From a virus, in the IMG/VR virus record IMGVR_UViG_3300032093_000562, positions 1-31,202 of that record: 31,202 nucleotides of DNA, one strand, 5' to 3'. Both the position numbers and the translations under genes were made by a program. The notes beneath the pieces were generated by a model. The model saw nothing but the letters and a program-made list of their open reading frames with translations, was not told the DNA's origin and searched no databases. Position 1 is the first letter of the stretch. Each line of letters opens with the position of its first letter. Below, piece by piece: positions 16,170-28,080 of the stretch.

Positions 16170-16322
16170 TTACGCCATAGGGCCGCGAGCGGTAGTGCCC
16201 TTGGTAGCTGCGCCATTGCCGCGAGTCTTAACCCCAGTGGTCTTGATACCCTTCTGCGGGTAACCGTTTTGACCAAGGGAGTTTTTGTTCGGCTTGGGCT
16301 GGCTATAGGTTGTGGTAGCCAT
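16170..16322 (-). CDS. 50-aa basic protein with RGNG-type C-terminal tail
   Basis: A small protein, starting MATTTYSQPKPNKNSLGQNG and ending KTRGNGAATKGTTARGPMA. The ATG at 16322 is preferred over a longer frame from 16358 because GGGGAGG lies five bases upstream, inside the end of the preceding gene. It is free of hydrophobic segments and rich in Lys, Thr and Gly, so it is probably disordered and nucleic-acid or capsid-binding. The tail can be aligned with those of the 78-aa and 261-aa genes (RG-x-G-x2-TKG-x-T). Proteins with this C-terminus recur in aquatic phages as I recall. Function unknown. Confidence 0.8.
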   Translation of the reverse strand: MATTTYSQPKPNKNSLGQNGYPQKGIKTTGVKTRGNGAATKGTTARGPMA

Positions 16323-16323
16323 A

Positions 16324-16470
16324 TCAGCCTCCCCGGCGACCAGACTTTCGGGAATCACCTTGATTAGCTATCTTGGCTCGATTACGTCCGAGCATCCGCA
16401 TTTGCAGATTAGTCTTACCGCCAGCAGCGTAGCCTTTCGCCGTTTTGCCGCCACATGCCTTACCTTTCAT
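16324..16470 (-). CDS. 48-aa glycine/lysine-rich protein
   Basis: The ATG at 16470 has AGGAG six bases upstream, which makes translation likely despite the small size. The protein starts MKGKACGGKTAKGYAAGGKT and continues NLQMRMLGRNRAKIANQGD to a basic end (RKSGRRGG). It carries the YAAGGKT variant of the YAKGG motif of nearby genes, but near its N-terminus and followed by a short basic helix. The last codons (Arg-Arg-Gly-Gly) also encode the GGGGAGG ribosome site of the next gene. Function unknown; DNA or capsid binding is plausible from the charge. Confidence 0.72.
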   Translation of the reverse strand: MKGKACGGKTAKGYAAGGKTNLQMRMLGRNRAKIANQGDSRKSGRRGG

Positions 16471-16479
16471 AGTATTCTC

Positions 16480-16869
16480 CTATGTCACCACCACAGTAAC
16501 TGACCCAAGGTGCAGAGTCAGACGAATATAGTTTGGGGTAAGAAGCTGATCTGGGTTGGTGCTCCCCCCAACAGGTGCCCAGCCCCACTGGATAATCCGG
16601 CTACCTTCACCAAGATTTCCATTAGCGAGTGTACCAGAGACTTGGTACGTTGTATCTCGTCGCGGATTCCGCAACGCCTGCGGGTCGTTTACGGGGTACA
16701 TGCCCAACTGCAACTGCGGATGGTCGGGTTCCCAGCACGACGGACAGACCAGAATGTTGACGTTCTTGGTCTTGATAGTCAGGGTCTTGAGTTGCTTCAG
16801 CTTGTAGCGAAACCCACAGCGGTCACACTGTGCTATCGCTCGTTTGCCTGTCGCAAACTGATTAGCCAC
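16480..16869 (-). CDS. Zinc-ribbon phage protein
   Basis: The 129-residue protein starts at GTG 16869 (MANQFATGKRAIAQ). Two CxxC knuckles, C15-DR-C18 and C42-PS-C45, form a zinc ribbon. Between them lies a basic segment (FRYKLKQLKTLTIKTKNVN) and after them the conserved PDHPQLQLGMYPVNDPQALRNPR. The C-terminal half is beta-rich and ends SVTVVVT. As I recall, this family (ribbon, QLQLGM, PVNDPQA) is widespread in aquatic phages next to neck genes, so a structural role, perhaps in the neck, is more likely than transcription control. GGAA about eight bases upstream could be the ribosome site. Exact function unknown. Confidence 0.83.
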   Translation of the reverse strand: MANQFATGKRAIAQCDRCGFRYKLKQLKTLTIKTKNVNILVCPSCWEPDHPQLQLGMYPVNDPQALRNPRRDTTYQVSGTLANGNLGEGSRIIQWGWAPVGGSTNPDQLLTPNYIRLTLHLGSVTVVVT

Positions 16870-16871
16870 GG

Positions 16872-17555
16872 TCAGTTTCCGAACATATAGCGCGGTACAA
16901 ACCGCACTGGGGCCTTCTCGCGATCTTCTTCAGAAGCGGTGTTCCACGCCTCGTCGTACTGCGCTTTGAGTACTTCCATCCGCACCATAGCGTCAGGGAT
17001 TTTCATCGACAGGTAGTACGCAAGCCCACAGACCAACGCGGGAAGGAACCTGAACGGCACATCCATCGTGTTAGTAGCTGACCCGGCATCCTGCATACGC
17101 CGCAGTCGCCAGTACACAAAGGTGTACGGCTGTGAGGTATCCGGTACAGGCCACACGGTAATCTCTGGGGATTCCAACCGCTTGATCCATACTTGGATGG
17201 GCCGTCCCGTAGAGGTTTTCGTAGGGATGCTCGCGTAGGTAGACGAACTGATACGCGAGATAGTGATGTCAGCCTGAGTCGTACCACTACCGGTACGGAT
17301 CACATGATCCAGAAGATCGACAGTATCAACAGGCAGGGCGTAGGTAGCCGTGCCTGCTACAAGTGGAATTGTCCCCTGCTCCAGCGTCCATAGGTTGACG
17401 CCCCGGTTGGCCCAATCCTGAAACAGCAGGTTTAAAGACCGGCGAGCGGTACGAAAGTCATAGCCCGACCGAAGCTCCGCACCACAACGCTCAAACGCCT
17501 CTTCGACTATATCGGAGAGGTCGAGGTTAAATGTAGCGGTGCCTGAAGTGGTCAT
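16872..17555 (-). CDS. Head-tail adaptor, P22 gp4-like
   Basis: A 227-residue protein starting MTTSGTATFNLDLSDIVEEAF. The N-terminal helices (DIVEEAFERCG, FRTARRSLNLLFQDWANRG), the conserved NLWTLEQG, the strand pair TATYALPVDTVDLLDHVIR and late helices (LPALVCGLAYYLSMKIPD, VLKAQYDEAWNTASEEDREKAP) give the usual order of P22 gp4-like tail accessory factors, which bind below the portal and close the neck. It ends FVPRYMFGN. The ATG overlaps the stop of the Gly/Tyr-rich gene as ATGA. With the portal and gp10-like protein it defines a P22-type neck. The assignment is by pattern and gene order. Confidence 0.85.
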   Translation of the reverse strand: MTTSGTATFNLDLSDIVEEAFERCGAELRSGYDFRTARRSLNLLFQDWANRGVNLWTLEQGTIPLVAGTATYALPVDTVDLLDHVIRTGSGTTQADITISRISSSTYASIPTKTSTGRPIQVWIKRLESPEITVWPVPDTSQPYTFVYWRLRRMQDAGSATNTMDVPFRFLPALVCGLAYYLSMKIPDAMVRMEVLKAQYDEAWNTASEEDREKAPVRFVPRYMFGN

Positions 17556-18499
17556 AGCAACATATTCGTCGGTTTAAAAGCCGTCGTAGGCGCGGGGGTC
17601 ACCGCAGGTCTAGGAGCCGTCGTCGTAGGTGAGGGAGCCGTCGCTACAGTTGTAGGTGTAGTCGGAGCTGGCTGAGTAGGCGTTGTCGGAGGCTTATAGT
17701 TTGTCGGTGGTGCGTTGGGGGTCAGGTAACCATACGGCTGCTGACGTTGCATCATGCCTGCGTAGCCACCCATCCGTTCAGCCATACCGCCGTAGCCACT
17801 CATACCGCCCATCATACCGCCCATCATACCGCCCATCATACCGCCCATCATACCGCCACCCATCTGGCGAGGCTGCATCATGCCCATGTAACCACCCATC
17901 TGGCGGGGCTGCATCATGCCCATATAACCACCGCCGTAGCCACCATAGCCACCATAGCCACCGTAGTCTCCGTAGCTGGGCATTCCGCCGTACATACTCG
18001 CCGGACTCATATATCCGCCGCCGTAGCCACCGCCCATACCACCGTAGCCACCCATACCACCGTAGCTAGGCATGGCAGCATAACCATAACCACCGTAGCC
18101 ACCACCGTAGCTTTGCGGACTAGCGTAACCATAACCACCATAACCGCCGTAACTAGGCATACCGGCATAGCCGCCCATAGCGCCGTAACCGCCGTAGCTA
18201 GGCATAGCAGCATAACCTTGAGCCATCATGGGCTGTGTACCTGTTTGAGTAGGTGGAGCCGCTGACGCAGAAGCTGCGGCAGGAGAAGAAATAGACTTAC
18301 CGGTAATACCTCCGCTACCGCCACCGTTAGTTGGGGCTTCTACTAGCTCGCCCGTAATCGGATTGTAGTAAGAGTTACCGCCGTCACGAGGATTAGTTTG
18401 CTTTGGAGCTATGTAAGCGTAGTCGATGCCGTACTTAGGTGACGAATAGCTTCGTCCCATCAGGTAATCAAGCATCATACTCGTGTGAGTATCAGGCAT
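17552..18499 (-). CDS. Gly/Tyr/Met-rich low-complexity protein, 315 aa
   Basis: The N-terminal ~65 residues are ordinary (MPDTHTSMMLDYLMGRSYSS, then YYNPITGELVEAPTN). Residues ~90-265 are almost only Gly, Tyr, Met, Ala, Ser and Pro, in repeats such as MPSYGGYG, GGYGYA, two copies of GYMGMMQPRQMG and a GGMM run. The last ~45 residues are Pro/Thr-rich (TPTQPAPTTPTT). Such sequences are disordered and may self-associate like silk-type or prion-like domains. The ATG at 18499 has GGAT eight bases upstream and lies six bases after the 45-aa gene. It ends by overlapping the gp4-like start. It may be a neck or minor capsid protein with a sticky tail; function unknown. Repeat-driven length variation is likely. 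Confidence 0.82.
   Translation of the reverse strand: MPDTHTSMMLDYLMGRSYSSPKYGIDYAYIAPKQTNPRDGGNSYYNPITGELVEAPTNGGGSGGITGKSISSPAAASASAAPPTQTGTQPMMAQGYAAMPSYGGYGAMGGYAGMPSYGGYGGYGYASPQSYGGGYGGYGYAAMPSYGGMGGYGGMGGGYGGGYMSPASMYGGMPSYGDYGGYGGYGGYGGGYMGMMQPRQMGGYMGMMQPRQMGGGMMGGMMGGMMGGMMGGMSGYGGMAERMGGYAGMMQRQQPYGYLTPNAPPTNYKPPTTPTQPAPTTPTTVATAPSPTTTAPRPAVTPAPTTAFKPTNMLL
17801..17857 (-). repeat. 12-base tandem repeat encoding Met-Gly-Gly-Met
   Basis: Four perfect copies of CATACCGCCCAT (plus strand) and a partial fifth, inside the Gly/Tyr-rich gene. They encode the M-M-G-G run. Being a multiple of three, copy changes keep the frame. Confidence 0.95.
17861..17932 (-). repeat. 36-base tandem repeat, two copies
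   Basis: Two copies of a 36-base unit at 17861-17896 and 17897-17932, with two or three base differences, encode the doubled GYMGMMQPRQMG peptide in the Gly/Tyr-rich protein. Confidence 0.92.
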
Positions 18500-18504
18500 A
18501 GCCG

Positions 18505-18642
18505 TTATCCTTTTTTGCGAGGACGGCAGGGACCGCCTTTAGCGTAAACGTCTACTATCTGAGGCGAGTCTTTCCGACTCACGCGGGTCTTGCGTGGCTT
18601 TTTGTTTTGGGCGATATCGCCCATACCACGACAAGGACGCAT
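18505..18642 (-). CDS. 45-aa basic protein with YAKGG motif
   Basis: A tiny gene tied to both neighbours: its ATG overlaps the preceding stop as TAATG and it ends six bases before the Gly/Tyr-rich gene. It starts MRPCRGMGDIAQNKKPRKTR and ends VYAKGGPCRPRKKG. Thirteen of 45 residues are Lys or Arg, with Cys at 4 and 39. The YAKGG near the C-terminus is the same motif as in the 78-, 89- and 261-aa proteins just upstream, but the RGDG part that follows there is replaced by PCRPRKKG. Disordered, probably nucleic-acid or capsid-binding. Function unknown. Confidence 0.75.
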   Translation of the reverse strand: MRPCRGMGDIAQNKKPRKTRVSRKDSPQIVDVYAKGGPCRPRKKG

Positions 18643-18911
18643 TACTTCATCCTGATCATTTTGCAAGCGGTCTTACCCTTACGGGCAATGCCATCGACTT
18701 TACCGCCTTTGGCGTAGCCCATCTCCTTATGCTCCTTCTTCTCGTACTCCCGCAGTTTCTTGGGAGCACCTTTTAGAGCACGTTCTTCTTTCTTGGCGAT
18801 CTTGCGGGTGTCTTTCTCTTTCCCCGCAGCCTCGCGCTTCTCATGCTTGGCAAGGCCTTTCTCGCCTTTCTTGGCGAAGTACGCCGCCATCTCGCCCGAC
18901 ATCTTACCCAT
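18642..18911 (-). CDS. 89-aa highly charged helical protein with YAKGGKV tail
   Basis: The protein starts MGKMSGEMAAYFAKKGEKGL and continues as a Lys/Glu-rich helix (AKHEKREAAGKEKDTRKIAKKEERAL, then APKKLREYEKKEHKEMG). It ends YAKGGKVDGIARKGKTACKM plus IRMK. The pattern KKGEKGLAKHEKREAAGKE-DT---AKKE is one I recall from many aquatic phages, usually near head or neck genes. The ATG overlaps the upstream stop as TAATG. The tail is a variant of the neighbours' tails: AKGGKV, then KGKT and a basic end. Probably a small virion or assembly protein; no known enzymatic role. Confidence 0.82.
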   Translation of the reverse strand: MGKMSGEMAAYFAKKGEKGLAKHEKREAAGKEKDTRKIAKKEERALKGAPKKLREYEKKEHKEMGYAKGGKVDGIARKGKTACKMIRMK

Positions 18912-19696
18912 TAGATGATCCTCCCACGGGTTTTGCCTTTCTTGGCACAGCCGTCAGCTTTTACGTGACCGCCTTTGGCGAAGCCACGTTCGCGCAACCG
19001 CTTAAATACCTCGTTATCTGGATTCCGTGACCCCAAATCAGCCATGAACTCCTTCATGCGATCTACTTTCGGTTTAGGAGCGGCTTTTGGTGCGGCTTTA
19101 GTCGGAGCATCCGCTACAGGCATAACTCGTTTCCGAGCAGTCACGCTCATCTCAGGAAGTTCTTTGTCCTGAAACTTCTTGAGTGCATTAGCAGAAACTT
19201 GACTCATGTAGTCAGGCTTACCTGCATCCCGCTTGGCTTCACCACGCTTACGCGCAGCTTCCATAGCGGCTTTGTCAGCCTGCTCCTGCTTGTACTCCGT
19301 GCGCCGGTTAAGGAAGCCAGCCACTTTGTCGCGGGCTGCTAGCGCGGGCTTTGTGTCTTTCAGTGCGTCACCAAGCTCATACGCGCCGTATATTGCGCCA
19401 GCAGGGCCAGCAAACCGTGCTGCGGTGCCAAGTGCTCCGCGACCAGCCATGCTAGCGGCGCTACGAGCAGCTTGACGTTTTGCAGCTTCGCGTGAGGCTG
19501 CTTGAGCTTCGCCTTCTACTGCGGAACTAAACGGAGCGGAAGGTTTTGGAGTGGGCTTAGGCTTAGGCTTAGGCTTGGATTTTTTCTCCTCCATGCCACT
19601 AGCGTAGTCTCCACCTCTAGGAGTACCCCCACGCATTTTTTCGCGGGGTTTACCACGTTTCTTTTCTTCCATCCCGCTTGAATAGTCACCAGCCAT
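18911..19696 (-). CDS. 261-aa Ala/Lys-rich protein with AKGG-type tail
   Basis: The ATG at 19696 has AGGAG seven bases upstream. The N-terminus holds a duplicated motif, GDYSSGMEEKKRGKPREK and GDYASGMEEKKSKPKPK, followed by a Lys-Pro run. Residues about 60-150 are Ala-rich helix with an apolar patch (GALGTAARFAGPAGAIYGAY) too weak for a sure membrane span. RTEYKQEQADKAAMEAARKR follows, then a Pro/Ala linker, and DRMKEFMADLGSRNPDNEVF. It ends FAKGGHVKADGCAKKGKTRG plus RII, the same tail as the 78-aa protein. The histone-like Lys/Ala composition suggests binding to DNA or to the inner capsid; an internal virion protein is possible. Function unknown. Confidence 0.78.
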   Translation of the reverse strand: MAGDYSSGMEEKKRGKPREKMRGGTPRGGDYASGMEEKKSKPKPKPKPTPKPSAPFSSAVEGEAQAASREAAKRQAARSAASMAGRGALGTAARFAGPAGAIYGAYELGDALKDTKPALAARDKVAGFLNRRTEYKQEQADKAAMEAARKRGEAKRDAGKPDYMSQVSANALKKFQDKELPEMSVTARKRVMPVADAPTKAAPKAAPKPKVDRMKEFMADLGSRNPDNEVFKRLRERGFAKGGHVKADGCAKKGKTRGRII

Positions 19697-19707
19697 TGCC
19701 GTTCTCC

Positions 19708-19944
19708 TTAAATCATCCGGCCTTTCGTGTGGCCTTTCGTGCAGCAGCCGTCGCCGCGAACTTTGCCACCCTTCGCCATTTTCTTAGGCGGGACTTTTTT
19801 AGGTGGAGGAGCCTTGGGTTTAGGTGCGGCGGCTTTGGGTTCAGTTTCTTTAAGAACCTTGCTAGCCTCTGCTTCGCTTTCCCCGCCCGCAATTTCATCC
19901 TCAGTGAGATCGCTCATTTTGATATCGTAGGGATTCTTAGGCAT
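19708..19944 (-). CDS. 78-aa protein with acidic N-terminus and KVRGDG tail
   Basis: It starts MPKNPYDIKMSDLTEDEIAG: the first 35 residues are acidic, then a Pro/Lys linker (PKPKAPPPKKVPPKK), then the C-terminus MAKGGKVRGDGCCTKGHTKG plus RMI. The ATG overlaps the upstream stop as TAATG. The tail is the clearest form of the motif shared by the neighbouring genes. The Cys pair in the tail (GDGCCTKG) is replaced by CA or AA in others. The three-part build (acidic body, flexible arm, basic tag) suggests an adaptor or tagged small virion protein. Function unknown. Confidence 0.8.
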   Translation of the reverse strand: MPKNPYDIKMSDLTEDEIAGGESEAEASKVLKETEPKAAAPKPKAPPPKKVPPKKMAKGGKVRGDGCCTKGHTKGRMI

Positions 19945-20174
19945 TACTTTTTCCTTTTCCCGCTAGGTGTAACAGGCCAGCTTTGTCTGGCTGGCCCCGT
20001 TTTCTTCGCTGCCATCGTAGCTTTCTGCTTCGATGACATCTTCGCTGCCGCTGCCTTGGGCCTGCAAGCGGGGTAGCCGCGTTTGTCGCTGGCCCCTGAC
20101 CGGCCACATTCTTTGCCAGTCTTTACATCAACCCACTGCTCACCGAACCATTTGCCAAGGCCGCCCTTAGCCAC
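19944..20174 (-). CDS. 76-aa basic phage protein (GKWFGEQWVD family)
   Basis: It starts at GTG 20174; the GTGGCTAA overlap with the stop of the 57-aa gene supports coupling. MAKGGLGKWFGEQWVDVKTG, then ECGRSGASDKRGYPACRPKA with two Cys, then KMSSKQKATMAAKKTG, gives the order GKWF-E-WVD / CGRS / YP-C-P / KMS, which I know from a family of small phage and algal-virus proteins (possibly DUF5872; the name is uncertain). The Cys pair could bind metal. Its basic charge and place among other basic proteins suggest a virion or DNA-binding role. No function is established. Confidence 0.83.
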   Translation of the reverse strand: MAKGGLGKWFGEQWVDVKTGKECGRSGASDKRGYPACRPKAAAAKMSSKQKATMAAKKTGPARQSWPVTPSGKRKK

Positions 20175-20340
20175 CTTTCTTCACCCGGTTGTCAGGGCCA
20201 GCCCATGACCCACCGCGCTTTTTGTACTCCTTGGACGCCCATGCGTTGGAATACGCGCTAGGGTGAACATCAAACTTGGCCTTAGCCGCCGCTTGAACAC
20301 GCGACCAAAGCGCAGAATTCTTCGGCTTTGGTGAGGCCAT
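20167..20340 (-). CDS. 57-aa conserved basic phage protein
   Basis: A gene of 57 codons plus stop, easily missed by length filters. It starts MASPKPKNSALWSRVQAAAK, continues AKFDVHPSAYSNAWASKEYK and ends with KRGGSWAGPDNRVKKGG. The core K-FDVHPSAYSNAWASKEYKKRGG-W is a recognisable conserved motif in small aquatic phage proteins. The ATG lies one base after the stop of the 84-aa gene, and its own stop overlaps the next GTG by eight bases (GTGGCTAA). This double coupling argues strongly that it is translated. Function unknown. Confidence 0.82.
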   Translation of the reverse strand: MASPKPKNSALWSRVQAAAKAKFDVHPSAYSNAWASKEYKKRGGSWAGPDNRVKKGG

Positions 20341-20341
20341 G

Positions 20342-20596
20342 TCAGCAGTTCCACGCCCGAAGCGACTTATTGATCCGTGAATTCGGATCGTTTGCCGTCT
20401 TTGAGCTAGTGTTTTTCTTTTTCATGCCTTTCATCCGAGCACAAAAAGAGTCACGGCGAGGGCCACCTTCAGGCTGCGGAGCCTTCAGCCCCGGCTTACC
20501 GGGGTTGGCCTTGTTGTACGAAGCCCTGCCTTTGGCGTTCAAACCGCCAGCAGGGTTCTTACCTTCTTTGCGAGTCCAAGCGGGTGTCTTAGGCAT
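20342..20596 (-). CDS. 84-aa conserved basic phage protein (DSFCARM motif)
   Basis: It starts MPKTPAWTRKEGKNPAGGLN. The segments AKGRASYNKANPG, LKAPQPEGGPRRDSFCARMK and SSKTANDPNSRINKSLRAWN-C form a continuous conserved block: AWTRKEGKNP-GGLN at the start, DSFCARMKGMKK in the middle and NDP-SRINK-LRAWNC at the end. I recall this as a widespread phage family (possibly DUF6321; the name is uncertain). The two Cys (FCARM and the C-terminal Cys) are conserved features. Its ATG overlaps the upstream stop by eight bases (ATGCCTAA). Function is unknown; the location suggests a minor virion or assembly protein. Confidence 0.87.
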   Translation of the reverse strand: MPKTPAWTRKEGKNPAGGLNAKGRASYNKANPGKPGLKAPQPEGGPRRDSFCARMKGMKKKNTSSKTANDPNSRINKSLRAWNC

Positions 20597-21578: not shown

Positions 21579-22511
21579 TCAGGTCGAACCGGGCGAACCC
21601 CAGATACCCAGCGGATCGGACCAGCCGAAGCTGTAACGCTCGCGGGCCTTGTACCGGACGTTGCCGGTGTCGAAGTCGCCGTCCATCGAAGTGCTCATGG
21701 GAGCACGGACGAAGTGCTTCAGGCCGTTGGGTACGTCAGTGGTGAGGAACCACGCGTTGGTGTCGGTCAGGAAGTGGTTGACCGTGTAGCCTTCCGGGAT
21801 TGCACCCATCTGCTTCAGCGCGTTGATGTCGTTGTCGGTCGTGCTGACGCGGAGTTCCGTGTCGAGCAGTCGCTTGGCGACGAACATCAGTGCCGGAGGA
21901 ATGACGAGTTTACGCGGCTTGGCTGCGATCAGCAGACCACGCTCATCGGTCCACGCTGCGATCTGGATAACCGCTGCTTCCAGAGCCGTTTCGTTCAGGT
22001 CAACACCGGTCGAGGGGCTGTTGTAGTTAACAGCACCGCTAACCAGCGGGTGACCGACGCGGCTACCGCCAGAGTTGTTACCAAACAGGGTGGTACCGTC
22101 ACCGCCAAGGTAGTTGCCGTTGAACCCGTTGTTCAGGATCGACGCAGCTTTTACCTGCTTGGTGTACGCCATCGCACGGGCCAGAGCCTTGGTGTAGCGA
22201 GCCGACAGACTGTCGTAGAGGTTGTCTTCTACGGCTTCTTCGGTGATCGCAAAGCCAAGAGCAATAGTCTCGTGGGTGTAGCGAGCGGTCCACGCCTCTT
22301 GCGCGTTGTCATACGCGATAGCGGAGCCTTCCGTCTTGACCGGTGCAGCCGCGAAGCCGGAGAGTTTCGTCTCCTCTTCAAAGCTACGCTCGGACGTTTC
22401 GGTGTCATAAACTTCCTTGTGCTCTTCGCCGTAGCGCGAATACTCCATGCCGAAGAGGGCGTTGAGGCCGGGAAGAAGCTCTTTAAGGAGCTGGGAACGT
22501 GAAATAGCCAT
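21579..22511 (-). CDS. Major capsid protein
   Basis: A 310-residue protein starting MAISRSQLLKELLPGLNALF with AGGAG nine bases upstream. The N-terminal arm (GMEYSRYGEEHKEVYDTETS, ERSFEEETKLSGFAAAP) is followed by the E-loop/P-domain region (ARYTHETIALGFAITEEAVE, DNLYDSLSARYTKALARAMA) and the A-domain-like C-terminus (RKLVIPPALMFVAKRLLDTE, ending WSDPLGIWGSPG). This is the HK97-type capsid family of many uncultured aquatic phages as I recall. It lies after scaffold and decoration genes, as expected, and is followed by a strong terminator, consistent with high expression. No separate maturation protease is seen. Confidence 0.92.
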   Translation of the reverse strand: MAISRSQLLKELLPGLNALFGMEYSRYGEEHKEVYDTETSERSFEEETKLSGFAAAPVKTEGSAIAYDNAQEAWTARYTHETIALGFAITEEAVEDNLYDSLSARYTKALARAMAYTKQVKAASILNNGFNGNYLGGDGTTLFGNNSGGSRVGHPLVSGAVNYNSPSTGVDLNETALEAAVIQIAAWTDERGLLIAAKPRKLVIPPALMFVAKRLLDTELRVSTTDNDINALKQMGAIPEGYTVNHFLTDTNAWFLTTDVPNGLKHFVRAPMSTSMDGDFDTGNVRYKARERYSFGWSDPLGIWGSPGST

Positions 22512-24597: not shown

Positions 24598-25032
24598 TTA
24601 CACAGCAACGCGGGTTATTCCGCGAGGATCAAGTACTACGGCCTCGACCTGATCATCATTGATGACCCGGAACTCTTTGCCGTAAATCTTGAAACGCGTA
24701 CCGGTGTAGTTACGCACCAGCACGAAATCGCCCACCTTGCACCACGGCCCGGTAGGGAACTTGGTCTGATCCTTATAGGCGTCAGAACCCATCTTGAGGA
24801 CAAACAACACCGACGTTGCGTGCTCTTCAGCCCGCATTGCAGATGAGGCTTTCAACAGCGATGTACCGTCGAATTTCTCCGATACATCCGGCACGACACA
24901 CAGCAGCTTCCAACCCGTGGGGTCTGGCAGCATTGTCGCCCGTTGCTCTTCTGTTTCCGTGTCATCGGGCGTATCACGCTCAATGATCGGCTTCGGCATT
25001 GTCACGCCGTGAGGCAAGATAAAATCAGTCAT
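24598..25032 (-). CDS. GroES-like co-chaperonin
   Basis: The 144-residue protein starts at ATG 25032 (MTDFILPHGVTMPKPIIERD), with GGAG seven bases upstream; ATG 25035 is the alternative and a longer frame from 25053 is less likely. After a ~40-residue acidic extension the GroES fold begins: GWKLLCVVPD (40-49), a lid-like loop with EKFDGTSLLKAS (52-63), HATSVLFVLKMGSDAYKD and the hallmark GDFVLVRNYTGTRFKIYGKE (101-120) followed by FRVINDDQVEAVV (121-133). These correspond to GD-VL---Y-GTE-KI-GEEY-IL---DILAV in GroES. It overlaps the 64-aa gene by eight bases. It probably teams with the host GroEL to fold capsid protein, as T4 gp31 does; this role is inferred. Confidence 0.9.
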   Translation of the reverse strand: MTDFILPHGVTMPKPIIERDTPDDTETEEQRATMLPDPTGWKLLCVVPDVSEKFDGTSLLKASSAMRAEEHATSVLFVLKMGSDAYKDQTKFPTGPWCKVGDFVLVRNYTGTRFKIYGKEFRVINDDQVEAVVLDPRGITRVAV

Positions 25033-25219
25033 CATCAGTCTCCAGTTTCTCAAGCAGGTCCATCAAGTGTCGCTCTGCCAACGCTAGGCCCTGAATCACG
25101 CCGCAGAGGTGTTTGTACGCTTCAAAAGACTGACACTGACCGGTAGCAGCGTCGTCCGCGAAGTTGTTCATATCAGCGCGTATTTTGTCTCGCAATACGC
25201 GGGCGAAGTCATTCACCAT
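25025..25219 (-). CDS. 64-aa helical protein (hypothetical)
   Basis: It starts MVNDFARVLRDKIRADMNNF and runs as helices through SFEAYKHLCGVIQGLALAER to HLMDLLEKLETDDD. It is fully alpha-helical by composition, with Cys at 29 and 39 and an acidic end. The ATG lies three bases after the portal stop and its end overlaps the GroES-like start by eight bases, so it is coupled. Short helical proteins at this site between portal and scaffold genes are frequent in related phages as I recall. Possibly a head-assembly helper; function unknown. Confidence 0.78.
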   Translation of the reverse strand: MVNDFARVLRDKIRADMNNFADDAATGQCQSFEAYKHLCGVIQGLALAERHLMDLLEKLETDDD

Positions 25220-25222
25220 ACA

Positions 25223-27811
25223 TCAGTCCTTTTTAGCGGGGGGTTTCTTCTTGTCGGGACTCTCGGAACTCCCCGGCTCCGATTTATTGCGACTGGACTC
25301 CATGCCCAACCGCAGCCCTTCACGCATCTGGTTAGCGTCGTCCCTCTCTTTCTGGAGGCCCAACTTCAACCCTTCGCGTGTCTGATTAGCATCCTCACGT
25401 TCCTTGTCGAGGCCAAGTTTCAGTCCTTCACGGGCAAACTTGCCCTCCATCTCATCCTTTTTAAGCTCCATCGTGAGCATGGACTTCTCATACTCATGCT
25501 GCATCTGCTCACGCCGCAGCGCGAAGTCCTGCTCCATCTGCTCTCGCTTCAACTGAAGCTCCTCCATCGACCGCTGCATATCGGCCTGAACCCGCTGCCC
25601 TTGAATCTGAACCTCCTGCTGTTTGATCTGAAGCTCTTGCTGCTGCATCTGCACCACAGGGTCTTGCGCTTGCTGTTGCGCCTGCATCATCTGAGCCTGT
25701 TGTTGTGACTGCTGCAACTGCTGCTGGCTTGCTTGTGCCAGCATGGTCGAGAGAGCGACCTCCACCTCCGGCGTAAGCTGCTCCTCCTCGGGGGGCAGGG
25801 GCAGGCCAAGCTGACTCTCGATCTGCTGGCGATACTCAAACCCAACGTGGGCGGCGATGTGATCCTGCAACGCAGCCATGATCTGCTGAGCTTTCGGATT
25901 CTGCCCCATCTTCTGCTGGATCATGGGGTCTTGCATCATGGAGTTATGCACGGCGAGGTGTGCCGCGTGGTCCTGATGCCGGAACGCTTTTATCGGCTCA
26001 CTCATCAACGCTCGCGCATTCTCCGTCACGGGGTCCATCGGCTTGAGGTCATTCTTCAACGGCACCAGCTTGGCTGCGTTCTTTATCCCTAGAACGTCCA
26101 GCATTCCCCGGTGAAGCTCCGGTAGGTCGTAAATATCCGGGGCCATCTGAGCCATCTGAATAACGGCCTGATACTGCACGATCCGCTGGGCCATAGTAGC
26201 CGCGTTGGGATCGGACACCGGCAGGATGTCCACGTGCTCATAGTCTTCTTTCTTCGCCTTGGGCGTACCCGTCTCAGGCTCGTAGTTGTAGGAGTCCTCC
26301 GTGTAGTCACGGATGATCTCAGCGAGGAGCTTCAACTCCTGCTTCAACGTGTAGTGAATCCGCGCCTGAACAGCGGAGAGCGGTTTAAGCTGCCGCTCCA
26401 GAATCGCCAGCGTCGTACCAACCGGGGCTTGTGACCCCATGTCACTGATCTTCACATCTGCCGTAGCGGCGAAGCGGCGACCATCCTCAATGATAGTCCC
26501 CAGCAACTGGAGCAGAGTCTGGCTAGGCTCCTTATAAGGAAGGGGCAGAATGCTATCCCGGATAGTCCCGGACCCTACGTCCACATCCCTGAACTCACCG
26601 GGGGAGATCGGCGTGTCATCTCCCTTGATCCGCAGGCTACGTGATTTGAGTCCTCCGGGGAGGTTAGCCAGCGTACCGGCGTCCACAAGCTGACGGGTCA
26701 GCGACGTAGCCGACTTGGCGAAGTTACCGATCAAGTGGAACAGGCCGAAGCCATATGAGCCAAAGCCGGGGATGTACTGATAGTGGACGAAGTGCTGACG
26801 CTTCAAGTTCAAGTCGTCTTCTTCCCGCCAGTTGCGGCGGATAGCCAGTACGTCATTAGACCCTTTGATCAGGGTGACCACATACGGCAGGGCAACGTCG
26901 TTCTCGTCCCCGTCGAGGTTCAGGTCCGCATGTGCCTCGTACAGCGTGTACCGCTCATCGTGGATGTCGCTGAACCCCGTCTCGCTGTCCTTCGCCTTCT
27001 TTATATCACTGCGGGTCTTGTCTGGGTCTGGGAGGTCAATGTCCCGGTAGAAGCCAGCCTGCTGTAACCGCTTGATTTCATTCTTGGTTTTACGCATCAC
27101 GTGGGTGACGCGGTGGCACATATAGATGTCAGACACGCCGTATGGCAGCACGACATCCTCTGCCGGGATGAACACAGCGATCTGGCGACCCAGACTTGGG
27201 TCGTAATAGATTTTCTTGAACGCGGAACCCGTCGCGGGCAGGTTCCACAGCATCTTCTCATGCTCCGGGCGGTACTCGATCATCCGCTCCGTAAGCTGAT
27301 AGTTCATGTCTTCTTTGACGCGGTGGGCAGCCTCTAGCTTCTCAGAGGTTTCCTTGCCAATGATCTTCGTCATCACCGGCCCGCTCGACGGGAATGTCTC
27401 CATCACCGTCTCGGCTTGGAACCTGACCACAGCCTCTGTGATCATGGGGTGGACGACGCCACAGGCCCCGCTCCACGGCTCCATCCGCTCCTCGTATTTG
27501 AGGCCCATCAACTTCAGGCCTTCAACATACGTCTCTTCCCAGTCTTTGCGACTGGCAAGATCATTCTCAATATCGCCAGCAAGTTCTTCAGCCATTGACT
27601 GAAGCGCCGACTCGTCCATTGTCTCAGCCAAGTTATCGCTGAACCCGCCACCCAGACCGTCTGCACCGGGTTCGATCTCGATCTCCATACCGTCTGCGTT
27701 TATCCGCACGGCTTCCGGGTCTTCAATCTCAATCTCCAACGCCGGGGTATCTTCGCCCAACAGATCGGCCAGCCCGGACGGGGCACGGTTCAACGCCTTG
27801 TCGATGCTCAT
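25223..27811 (-). CDS. Portal protein, 862 aa with repeated C-terminal coiled coil
   Basis: It follows the terminase genes. After an acidic N-terminal ~85 residues the portal core begins (LASRKDWEETYVEGLKLMGL, then EPWSGACGVVHPMITEAVVR, FQAETVMETFPSSGPVMTKI) with a wing/stem-like segment (GSYGFGLFHLIGNFAKSATS, then LTRQLVDAGTLANLPGGLKS). From about residue 690 the protein is Gln/Glu-rich coiled coil (LAQASQQQLQQSQQQAQMMQ), and residues 794-847 hold nearly three copies of an 18-residue unit, REGLKLGLDKEREDANQT. The length exceeds P22-type portals of about 725 residues; the extra is this tail, which could form a barrel or contact packaged DNA. It starts by TAATG overlap with the 89-aa gene. The portal assignment is firm by context and motifs, the exact family less so. 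Confidence 0.9.
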   Translation of the reverse strand: MSIDKALNRAPSGLADLLGEDTPALEIEIEDPEAVRINADGMEIEIEPGADGLGGGFSDNLAETMDESALQSMAEELAGDIENDLASRKDWEETYVEGLKLMGLKYEERMEPWSGACGVVHPMITEAVVRFQAETVMETFPSSGPVMTKIIGKETSEKLEAAHRVKEDMNYQLTERMIEYRPEHEKMLWNLPATGSAFKKIYYDPSLGRQIAVFIPAEDVVLPYGVSDIYMCHRVTHVMRKTKNEIKRLQQAGFYRDIDLPDPDKTRSDIKKAKDSETGFSDIHDERYTLYEAHADLNLDGDENDVALPYVVTLIKGSNDVLAIRRNWREEDDLNLKRQHFVHYQYIPGFGSYGFGLFHLIGNFAKSATSLTRQLVDAGTLANLPGGLKSRSLRIKGDDTPISPGEFRDVDVGSGTIRDSILPLPYKEPSQTLLQLLGTIIEDGRRFAATADVKISDMGSQAPVGTTLAILERQLKPLSAVQARIHYTLKQELKLLAEIIRDYTEDSYNYEPETGTPKAKKEDYEHVDILPVSDPNAATMAQRIVQYQAVIQMAQMAPDIYDLPELHRGMLDVLGIKNAAKLVPLKNDLKPMDPVTENARALMSEPIKAFRHQDHAAHLAVHNSMMQDPMIQQKMGQNPKAQQIMAALQDHIAAHVGFEYRQQIESQLGLPLPPEEEQLTPEVEVALSTMLAQASQQQLQQSQQQAQMMQAQQQAQDPVVQMQQQELQIKQQEVQIQGQRVQADMQRSMEELQLKREQMEQDFALRREQMQHEYEKSMLTMELKKDEMEGKFAREGLKLGLDKEREDANQTREGLKLGLQKERDDANQMREGLRLGMESSRNKSEPGSSESPDKKKPPAKKD
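25271..25432 (-). repeat. 54-base coding repeats in the portal C-terminus
   Basis: Nearly three tandem copies of a 54-base unit encoding REGLKLGLDKEREDANQT and its variants. The third copy is truncated and diverged. The DNA copies differ mostly at third codon positions, so the repeat is conserved at protein level. Confidence 0.8.
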
Positions 27812-28080
27812 TATCGGCTCCTCAATCTCGCCCGGTTTGTGGCGGGATTATATACATAATCTTTAACTTTTCCTCCCTTGCTCAGTTTGACAGCGCGATC
27901 TTTCGCTCGCTCTTCTGCTGTCATGCTGTCTCGGGAAGCGCCTTCAGCGGTCAGCGTACCATCTTCGCGCATATGGCCCCGCTGTATAAGAATCTTTTTA
28001 GCCATCTCCTCATCCCCGCCGACTTGTGCAGTGAGGCGTTTGAGCAGGCTGTATCGACCCATGTGCTGCTGAGTAACCAT
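27811..28080 (-). CDS. 89-aa basic protein between terminase and portal
   Basis: It starts MVTQQHMGRYSLLKRLTAQV and continues GGDEEMAKKILIQRGHMRED, TLTAEGASRDSMTAEERAKD and RAVKLSKGGKVKDYVYNPAT, ending NRARLRSR. Its ATG overlaps the terminase stop as ATGA, and its stop overlaps the portal start as TAATG. The SKGGKVKDYVYNPATNRA block is recurrent in related phages as I recall, and its KGGKV core also occurs in the tails of the basic-protein run near 19 kb. Mainly helical N-terminus with a charged end. Perhaps a packaging or head-completion factor; function unknown. Confidence 0.8.
   Translation of the reverse strand: MVTQQHMGRYSLLKRLTAQVGGDEEMAKKILIQRGHMREDGTLTAEGASRDSMTAEERAKDRAVKLSKGGKVKDYVYNPATNRARLRSR

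Follow-up and report, generated by a model that had tools for sequence, protein, structure and literature searches.

A modular C-terminal peptide tag on unrelated small proteins in the head gene module of aquatic phages

Encapsulin cargo-loading peptides are C-terminal and load unrelated proteins into an HK97-fold shell. In phage T4, one short conserved capsid targeting sequence is carried by diverse small head proteins, the internal proteins (PMC3012670); it is an N-terminal propeptide of 10–20 residues (PMC5694885). Here, a conserved peptide, referred to as the tag, was analyzed at the C-terminal ends of small genes in the IMG/VR virus record IMGVR_UViG_3300032093_000562. In the window, meaning the whole stretch of 31.2 kb (31,202 nt), the minus strand encodes the head and tail genes. 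Like the T4 sequence, the tag is a short conserved peptide on non-homologous bodies. It differs from the T4 sequence in being C-terminal rather than N-terminal; moreover, the T4 internal proteins are processed, whereas no head protease was recognised when head-module proteins were scanned against PHROGs. The tag, being C-terminal, is not claimed as a member of the T4 capsid targeting sequence family. With the encapsulin peptides it shares the C-terminal position on unrelated proteins; the particle and the context are different.

The head module of the window is ordered as terminase, portal, GroES-like gene, major capsid protein (21579..22511, minus strand; the reference point for tag location), small genes, and structural and tail genes. 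Three of the small genes, all on the minus strand, carry the tag. The gene of 78 amino acids (aa), with an acidic, Ala-Pro-rich body, spans 19708..19944 and ends in AKGGKVRGDGCCTKGHTKGRMI (19711..19776); the 261-aa gene (18911..19696) ends in AKGGHVKADGCAKKGKTRGRII (18914..18979); and the 89-aa gene (18642..18911), with a Lys/Glu-rich body of a cluster (cluster 4) found in five loci, ends in AKGGKVDGIARKGKTACKMIRMK (18645..18713), a form extended past the core. Aligned at their C-termini, these three tails scored 84, 70, and 50, and none of 12,600 pairs of shuffled C-termini scored above 38, so the common tail proposed for them by the initial annotation was real. The tail given there for the 89-aa gene was incomplete, as it runs on to ...KGKTACKMIRMK. 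The 50-aa gene (16170..16322, minus strand), counted there with the others, ends in a related tail, KTRGNGAATKGTTARGPMA (16173..16229; score 47 against the 78-aa gene), but this is a separate class with a single copy per genome, designated class C. Two further members were dropped: the 45/53-aa open reading frame (ORF) at 18505–18666 has only YAKGG in common with the tag, and the KGGKV of the 89-aa portal-side gene (27811–28080), with a score of 36, does not stand out from the shuffled pairs, and the DGxAxKGxT core is missing from it. The tagged window genes had no Pfam match; DUF6321 (PF19846) scored above the gathering score only in an 84-aa neighbour.

The tail is a modular C-terminal peptide of about 20 residues, consisting of a flexible KGG linker, R-[AG]-x-G-x-A-x-[KR]-G, a short basic stretch, and the free carboxylate. 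A profile of four tail sequences was run over six-frame translations of related loci and then rebuilt; counts derived from IMG/VR, here and below, are counts among the matches listed, best first, and are samples rather than frequencies. At a score of at least 10 bits, the rebuilt profile gave 176 C-terminal and 4 internal matches, reversed decoys gave 2, and the opposite strand of the related loci gave none. This search, which the initial annotation had proposed as a check, found one tag across unrelated bodies, and the tail was conserved in the related phages. In a larger set of 339 loci with 500 distinct tags, aligned with a hidden Markov model without a motif filter, three Gly positions were kept in 479 of 479, 497 of 499, and 497 of 499 tags, Lys/Arg occupied two further positions (492 of 499 and 475 of 495), and Ala filled another in 83%. 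Conservation was taken from this alignment because the regular expression of the filtered subset fixes two Gly by construction. Within that subset, 232 of 362 tags of the main form (class A) stop one residue past the 14-residue core; a second class A form has about 10 more residues, often up to ...GGKAC. The class C tail shares the R-x-x-G-x-A-x-K-G core and was found exactly once per locus in 147 loci.

No significant profile match for the tag was found in Pfam, NCBIfam, or PHROG, and the PDB gave only chance matches to the tail, such as trypsin loops. A tblastn search of INPHARED with the tail, which is too short for significance, returned only Planktothrix phage Pag-Yong1 and a pair of records that contain the same tagged gene (E = 3); the Pag-Yong1 protein UMO75986.1 has the tag ...GRDGCAKRGRTKGRFI. 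Class C matches in Vibrio NO16 and Pseudoalteromonas Pq0 (E = 3 and 10) were disregarded. In the open-access papers and the libraries searched, no earlier description of the tag was found. A Walker A P-loop (GxxxxGK[ST]) was rejected because its Lys is not conserved, being present in 322 of 497 tags (class C included) and replaced by His, Thr, Val, and others; Thr was present in 399 of 496. A membrane acyltransferase-like ORF of a Patulibacter bin (L258, 4135–6104) with a clear terminal tag is probably an assembly chimera, since the tag lies about 160 bases from the contig end. In phage DSL-LC04 (L174, 8601–9242), two adjacent post-portal genes both end in KKT[KR]I[CY] and have a KGG/SGG stretch in common, which may be a further dialect of the tag.

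The free C-terminus belongs to the motif, and basic-hydrophobic ends such as GRMV, GRII, and GVF occur. The basic-hydrophobic end of MuA is read by ClpX, and the tag might likewise mark its proteins for a host AAA+ protease or chaperone, as a C-terminal degron or a regulatory signal. This appears improbable, since the conserved part spans about 16 terminal residues, the extended form has ...GGKAC as its end, and confinement to the head module would not be expected for a general degron. AlphaFold2 modelling of a tagged DUF6321 protein gave moderate confidence for the body and a predicted local distance difference test score (pLDDT) below 50 throughout the tag (residues 87–107).

BLAST grouping of 161 distinct tagged genes gave 69 body groups, 52 of them singletons; the tagged genes are thus not full-length paralogues with diverged bodies, the explanation that the initial annotation had set against its transferable tag. 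The tagged proteins had a median whole length of 118 aa. Their bodies had a median isoelectric point (pI) of 10.0 and were rich in K, A, G, and P, with 0.1% Cys and 0.2% Trp; about 10% were acidic. By composition, most bodies are probably disordered. An ejection or pilot role through Gly/Ala-rich transmembrane-like helices was rejected, as only 8 of 358 tagged bodies had a strongly hydrophobic stretch. A median pI of 10.5 for the tag and the basic bodies would suit a generic nucleic-acid binding tail on protamine-like condensers with no specific reader. Charge does not need the fixed Gly, the strongly conserved Thr and Asp, or the fixed distance from the stop, and the acidic bodies do not fit either; this explanation is quite unlikely, and the fixed spacing from the C-terminus favours recognition by a partner over generic DNA binding. 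A dockerin/EF-hand-like loop, PDLTGDGKVTRADVLKGRG, was observed in several tagged bodies (L126, L378, L405, L423, and L223). At the other end, 23 of 358 otherwise different tagged proteins (e.g., L052_12214 and L042_2712) had an N-terminal motif such as M-K-K-K-R-[FY]-x-[DE]-G-G, which may be a second tag.

Comparison of the window with loci L084 and L086, whose capsid protein is 98% identical, showed that DNA homology was lost near the start of the 78-aa gene (19944–19956) and resumed at its tag start, at 19785 in L084 and 19766 in L086, with the body replaced in both. Compared with L091, homology was back at 18985, the tag start of the 261-aa gene. Over all pairs, tagged genes contained 2212 homology starts, of which 1382 lay between −50 and +40 nt relative to the start of the tag (uniform expectation 625), in pairs that are not independent and with conserved tags that themselves help to lengthen the matches; homology ends inside tagged genes showed no clustering at the tag start. 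In L052, two genes with unrelated bodies were identical over the last 97 bases, and a third gene shared 52. In tagged DUF6321 homologues, the tag was appended directly after the same ...AWNC end as in untagged ones, and the DUF6321 tree, which has few columns and many unresolved forks, needed 3 changes of tagged state. The restarts of homology and the presence of DUF6321 with and without the tag, together with the number of body groups, bore out the transferable tag that had been proposed.

Such restarts, and the L052 copies identical over 52–97 bases, would also be produced if short homologous DNA at gene ends drove cassette exchange and the peptide were a by-product of recombination without function. 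In the motif-filtered set, where absolute values are raised and both groups are affected alike, within-genome tag pairs with non-homologous bodies had 66% amino acid identity, a level that none of 300 permutations reached, and between-genome pairs had 63%. At shared residues, third bases were identical in 47% of cases within and 43% between genomes, and DNA-identical pairs within a genome numbered 3 of 287, so most tags would be poor homologous DNA. Because the peptide was kept as third bases diverged widely, the tags are old and maintained by selection at the peptide level; recent copying has taken place occasionally. The by-product explanation is disfavoured and extremely unlikely.

Class A tags whose locus also contains a capsid gene numbered 217, and every one of them lay downstream of that gene, at a median of 2.6 kb. 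Among 52 loci with a capsid gene and at least 5.5 kb downstream of it, 42 had a class A tag: 42 of 46 at a capsid identity of at least 71%, and 0 of 6 at 62% or below. The class C gene lies between adaptor-side genes and a 220-aa virion structural/tail protein. Its position, its exact single copy, and the core that it has in common with class A would fit an assembly anchor instead of a cargo signal, in which tagged and class C proteins would be structural or cement parts on the particle that plug into one shared groove, in the portal, the adaptor, or the capsid. This is rather unlikely: unlike a structural part, the class A bodies vary in number (0–5 tagged genes per locus) and in identity, and most look disordered by composition.

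The fixed distance to the free C-terminus, the movement between unrelated bodies, and the confinement to the head module are best read together as a recognition signal; since bodies are swapped and the tail is kept, the tail is probably an address label read by a conserved part of the particle. With moderate confidence, we regard the tag as a C-terminal signal for loading or docking that some conserved component of the head recognises. The reader would be a conserved structural part of the head or portal vertex, and the tag would recruit its carriers, a variable assortment of small and mainly basic proteins that are probably disordered, to the inside or the surface of the particle during assembly. 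The tagged proteins, as putative virion components, may condense DNA or be delivered with it, and the tag would work like the N-terminal capsid targeting sequence of the T4 internal proteins. Those proteins are cut at that sequence (PMC3012670, PMC5694885), and the tail could likewise be removed by a head protease at maturation. With no head protease recognised in the window among the head genes scanned against PHROGs, cleavage has no positive support and is highly improbable.

Several observations weigh against a loading or docking signal. A class A tag was not seen in 4 of the 46 loci with a capsid identity of at least 71%, conserved proteins upstream of the capsid gene had no class A tail, and within-genome similarity of the tags barely exceeded that between genomes. 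The phyletic pattern failed to separate the candidates for a reader (capsid, portal, adaptor, and conserved 312-, 162-, and 213-aa proteins) because the majority of head genes are conserved whether or not a relative is tagged. An AlphaFold2 model of the major capsid protein had a pLDDT of 40 and was not used. The open-access literature yielded neither a virion proteome of a phage with the tag nor any mass spectrometry or structure that places a tagged protein in the virion.

A second form of the tag, the RGxGAA or 'marine' dialect, was found in HTVC023P, an isolated Pelagibacter phage with a capsid protein 62% identical to that of the window; the label comes from this phage, not from the habitats of individual contigs. 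Two HTVC023P proteins, gp32 and gp51, end in RGxGAAxRGxxFxGxx (RGVGAAIRGHKFIGVK and RGGGAAVRGMGFKGVF). RGxGAAxRGxxFxG was searched in IMG/VR as a DNA pattern with no stop codon included, and of the 81 translated matches listed, 80 ended exactly two residues before the stop and one at the stop. Homologues of the window head genes were present in 78 of 80 RGxGAA loci. From the conserved Arg to the carboxyl end, class A and RGxGAA tags, aligned by eye, both have 16 residues. The RGxGAA-tagged bodies formed 22 groups, and nine of these bodies had class A-tagged homologues, representing about five body types (the last match was weak, E = 9e-4). Bodies found under both dialects include the PDLTGDGKVTRADVLKGRG body and the VTKEELxxSGxSLRDFLNKERGLT body.

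DUF6321, a carrier of the tag in other loci, is untagged in the window (84 aa; 20342..20596, minus strand). It resembles the tag as a basic C-terminal module within the same cassette; it differs in being a domain, about 80 aa long and predicted to contain helices, behind which the tag is added as a separate 20-residue element. In S-SCSM1 (L341, 4687–6240), a 517-aa protein that carries a virion-protein annotation has DUF6321 as its final 79 residues; the authors of that genome report a mass-spectrometry virion proteome. The domain also lies at the C-terminal end of PHROG profiles 3477, 727, 30733, and 10346, and since it ends longer proteins, it may itself be a transferable C-terminal module. 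In T7-like cyanophages and in a pelagiphage, it is found next to the capsid gene or a short distance away, and as a tag carrier it gives indirect support for a virion context. A Foldseek search with DUF6321 gave no match.

Other features of the window were recorded beside the tagged genes. Two untagged DUF5872-like genes, of 76 aa (19944–20174) and 57 aa (20167–20340), lie on the minus strand; the 57-aa gene resembles, by eye, the KxYPSAYANAYA-type domain of the tagged marine proteins L361, L364, and L407. Just upstream of the class C gene, at 16324–16470, another small protein has a conserved end of its own, approximately GG[KP]T(N/D)xxMxxxGxNxxxxxNQ, in common with L314 (7636–7821), L031, and L081; this end has KGG without the tag. 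A 315-aa repetitive Gly/Tyr/Met-rich protein (17552–18499) has few detectable relatives, and its neighbours are conserved. The GroES-like co-chaperonin (24598–25053) is found in the head module of many phages of this group.

The tag occurs across a large group of aquatic phages, far beyond the window. We propose tentatively that an aquatic podovirus-like phage clade may use a general system of C-terminal address labels whose dialects, RADGxAxKGKTKGRMV and RGxGAAxRGxxFxGVF, are interchangeable and which would load fast-changing, disordered basic cargo into the virion, new cargo being recruited by recombining behind the tag. Even without a function, the tag is a recognisable signal on hundreds of unannotated proteins. 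If it is a loading signal, it would allow direct prediction from sequence of which of the many small proteins of unknown function in abundant aquatic phages belong to the virion. Such a signal would also account for how cargo can change in these phages while assembly stays the same, and would serve as a compact C-terminal handle by which proteins could be introduced into particles of this kind.
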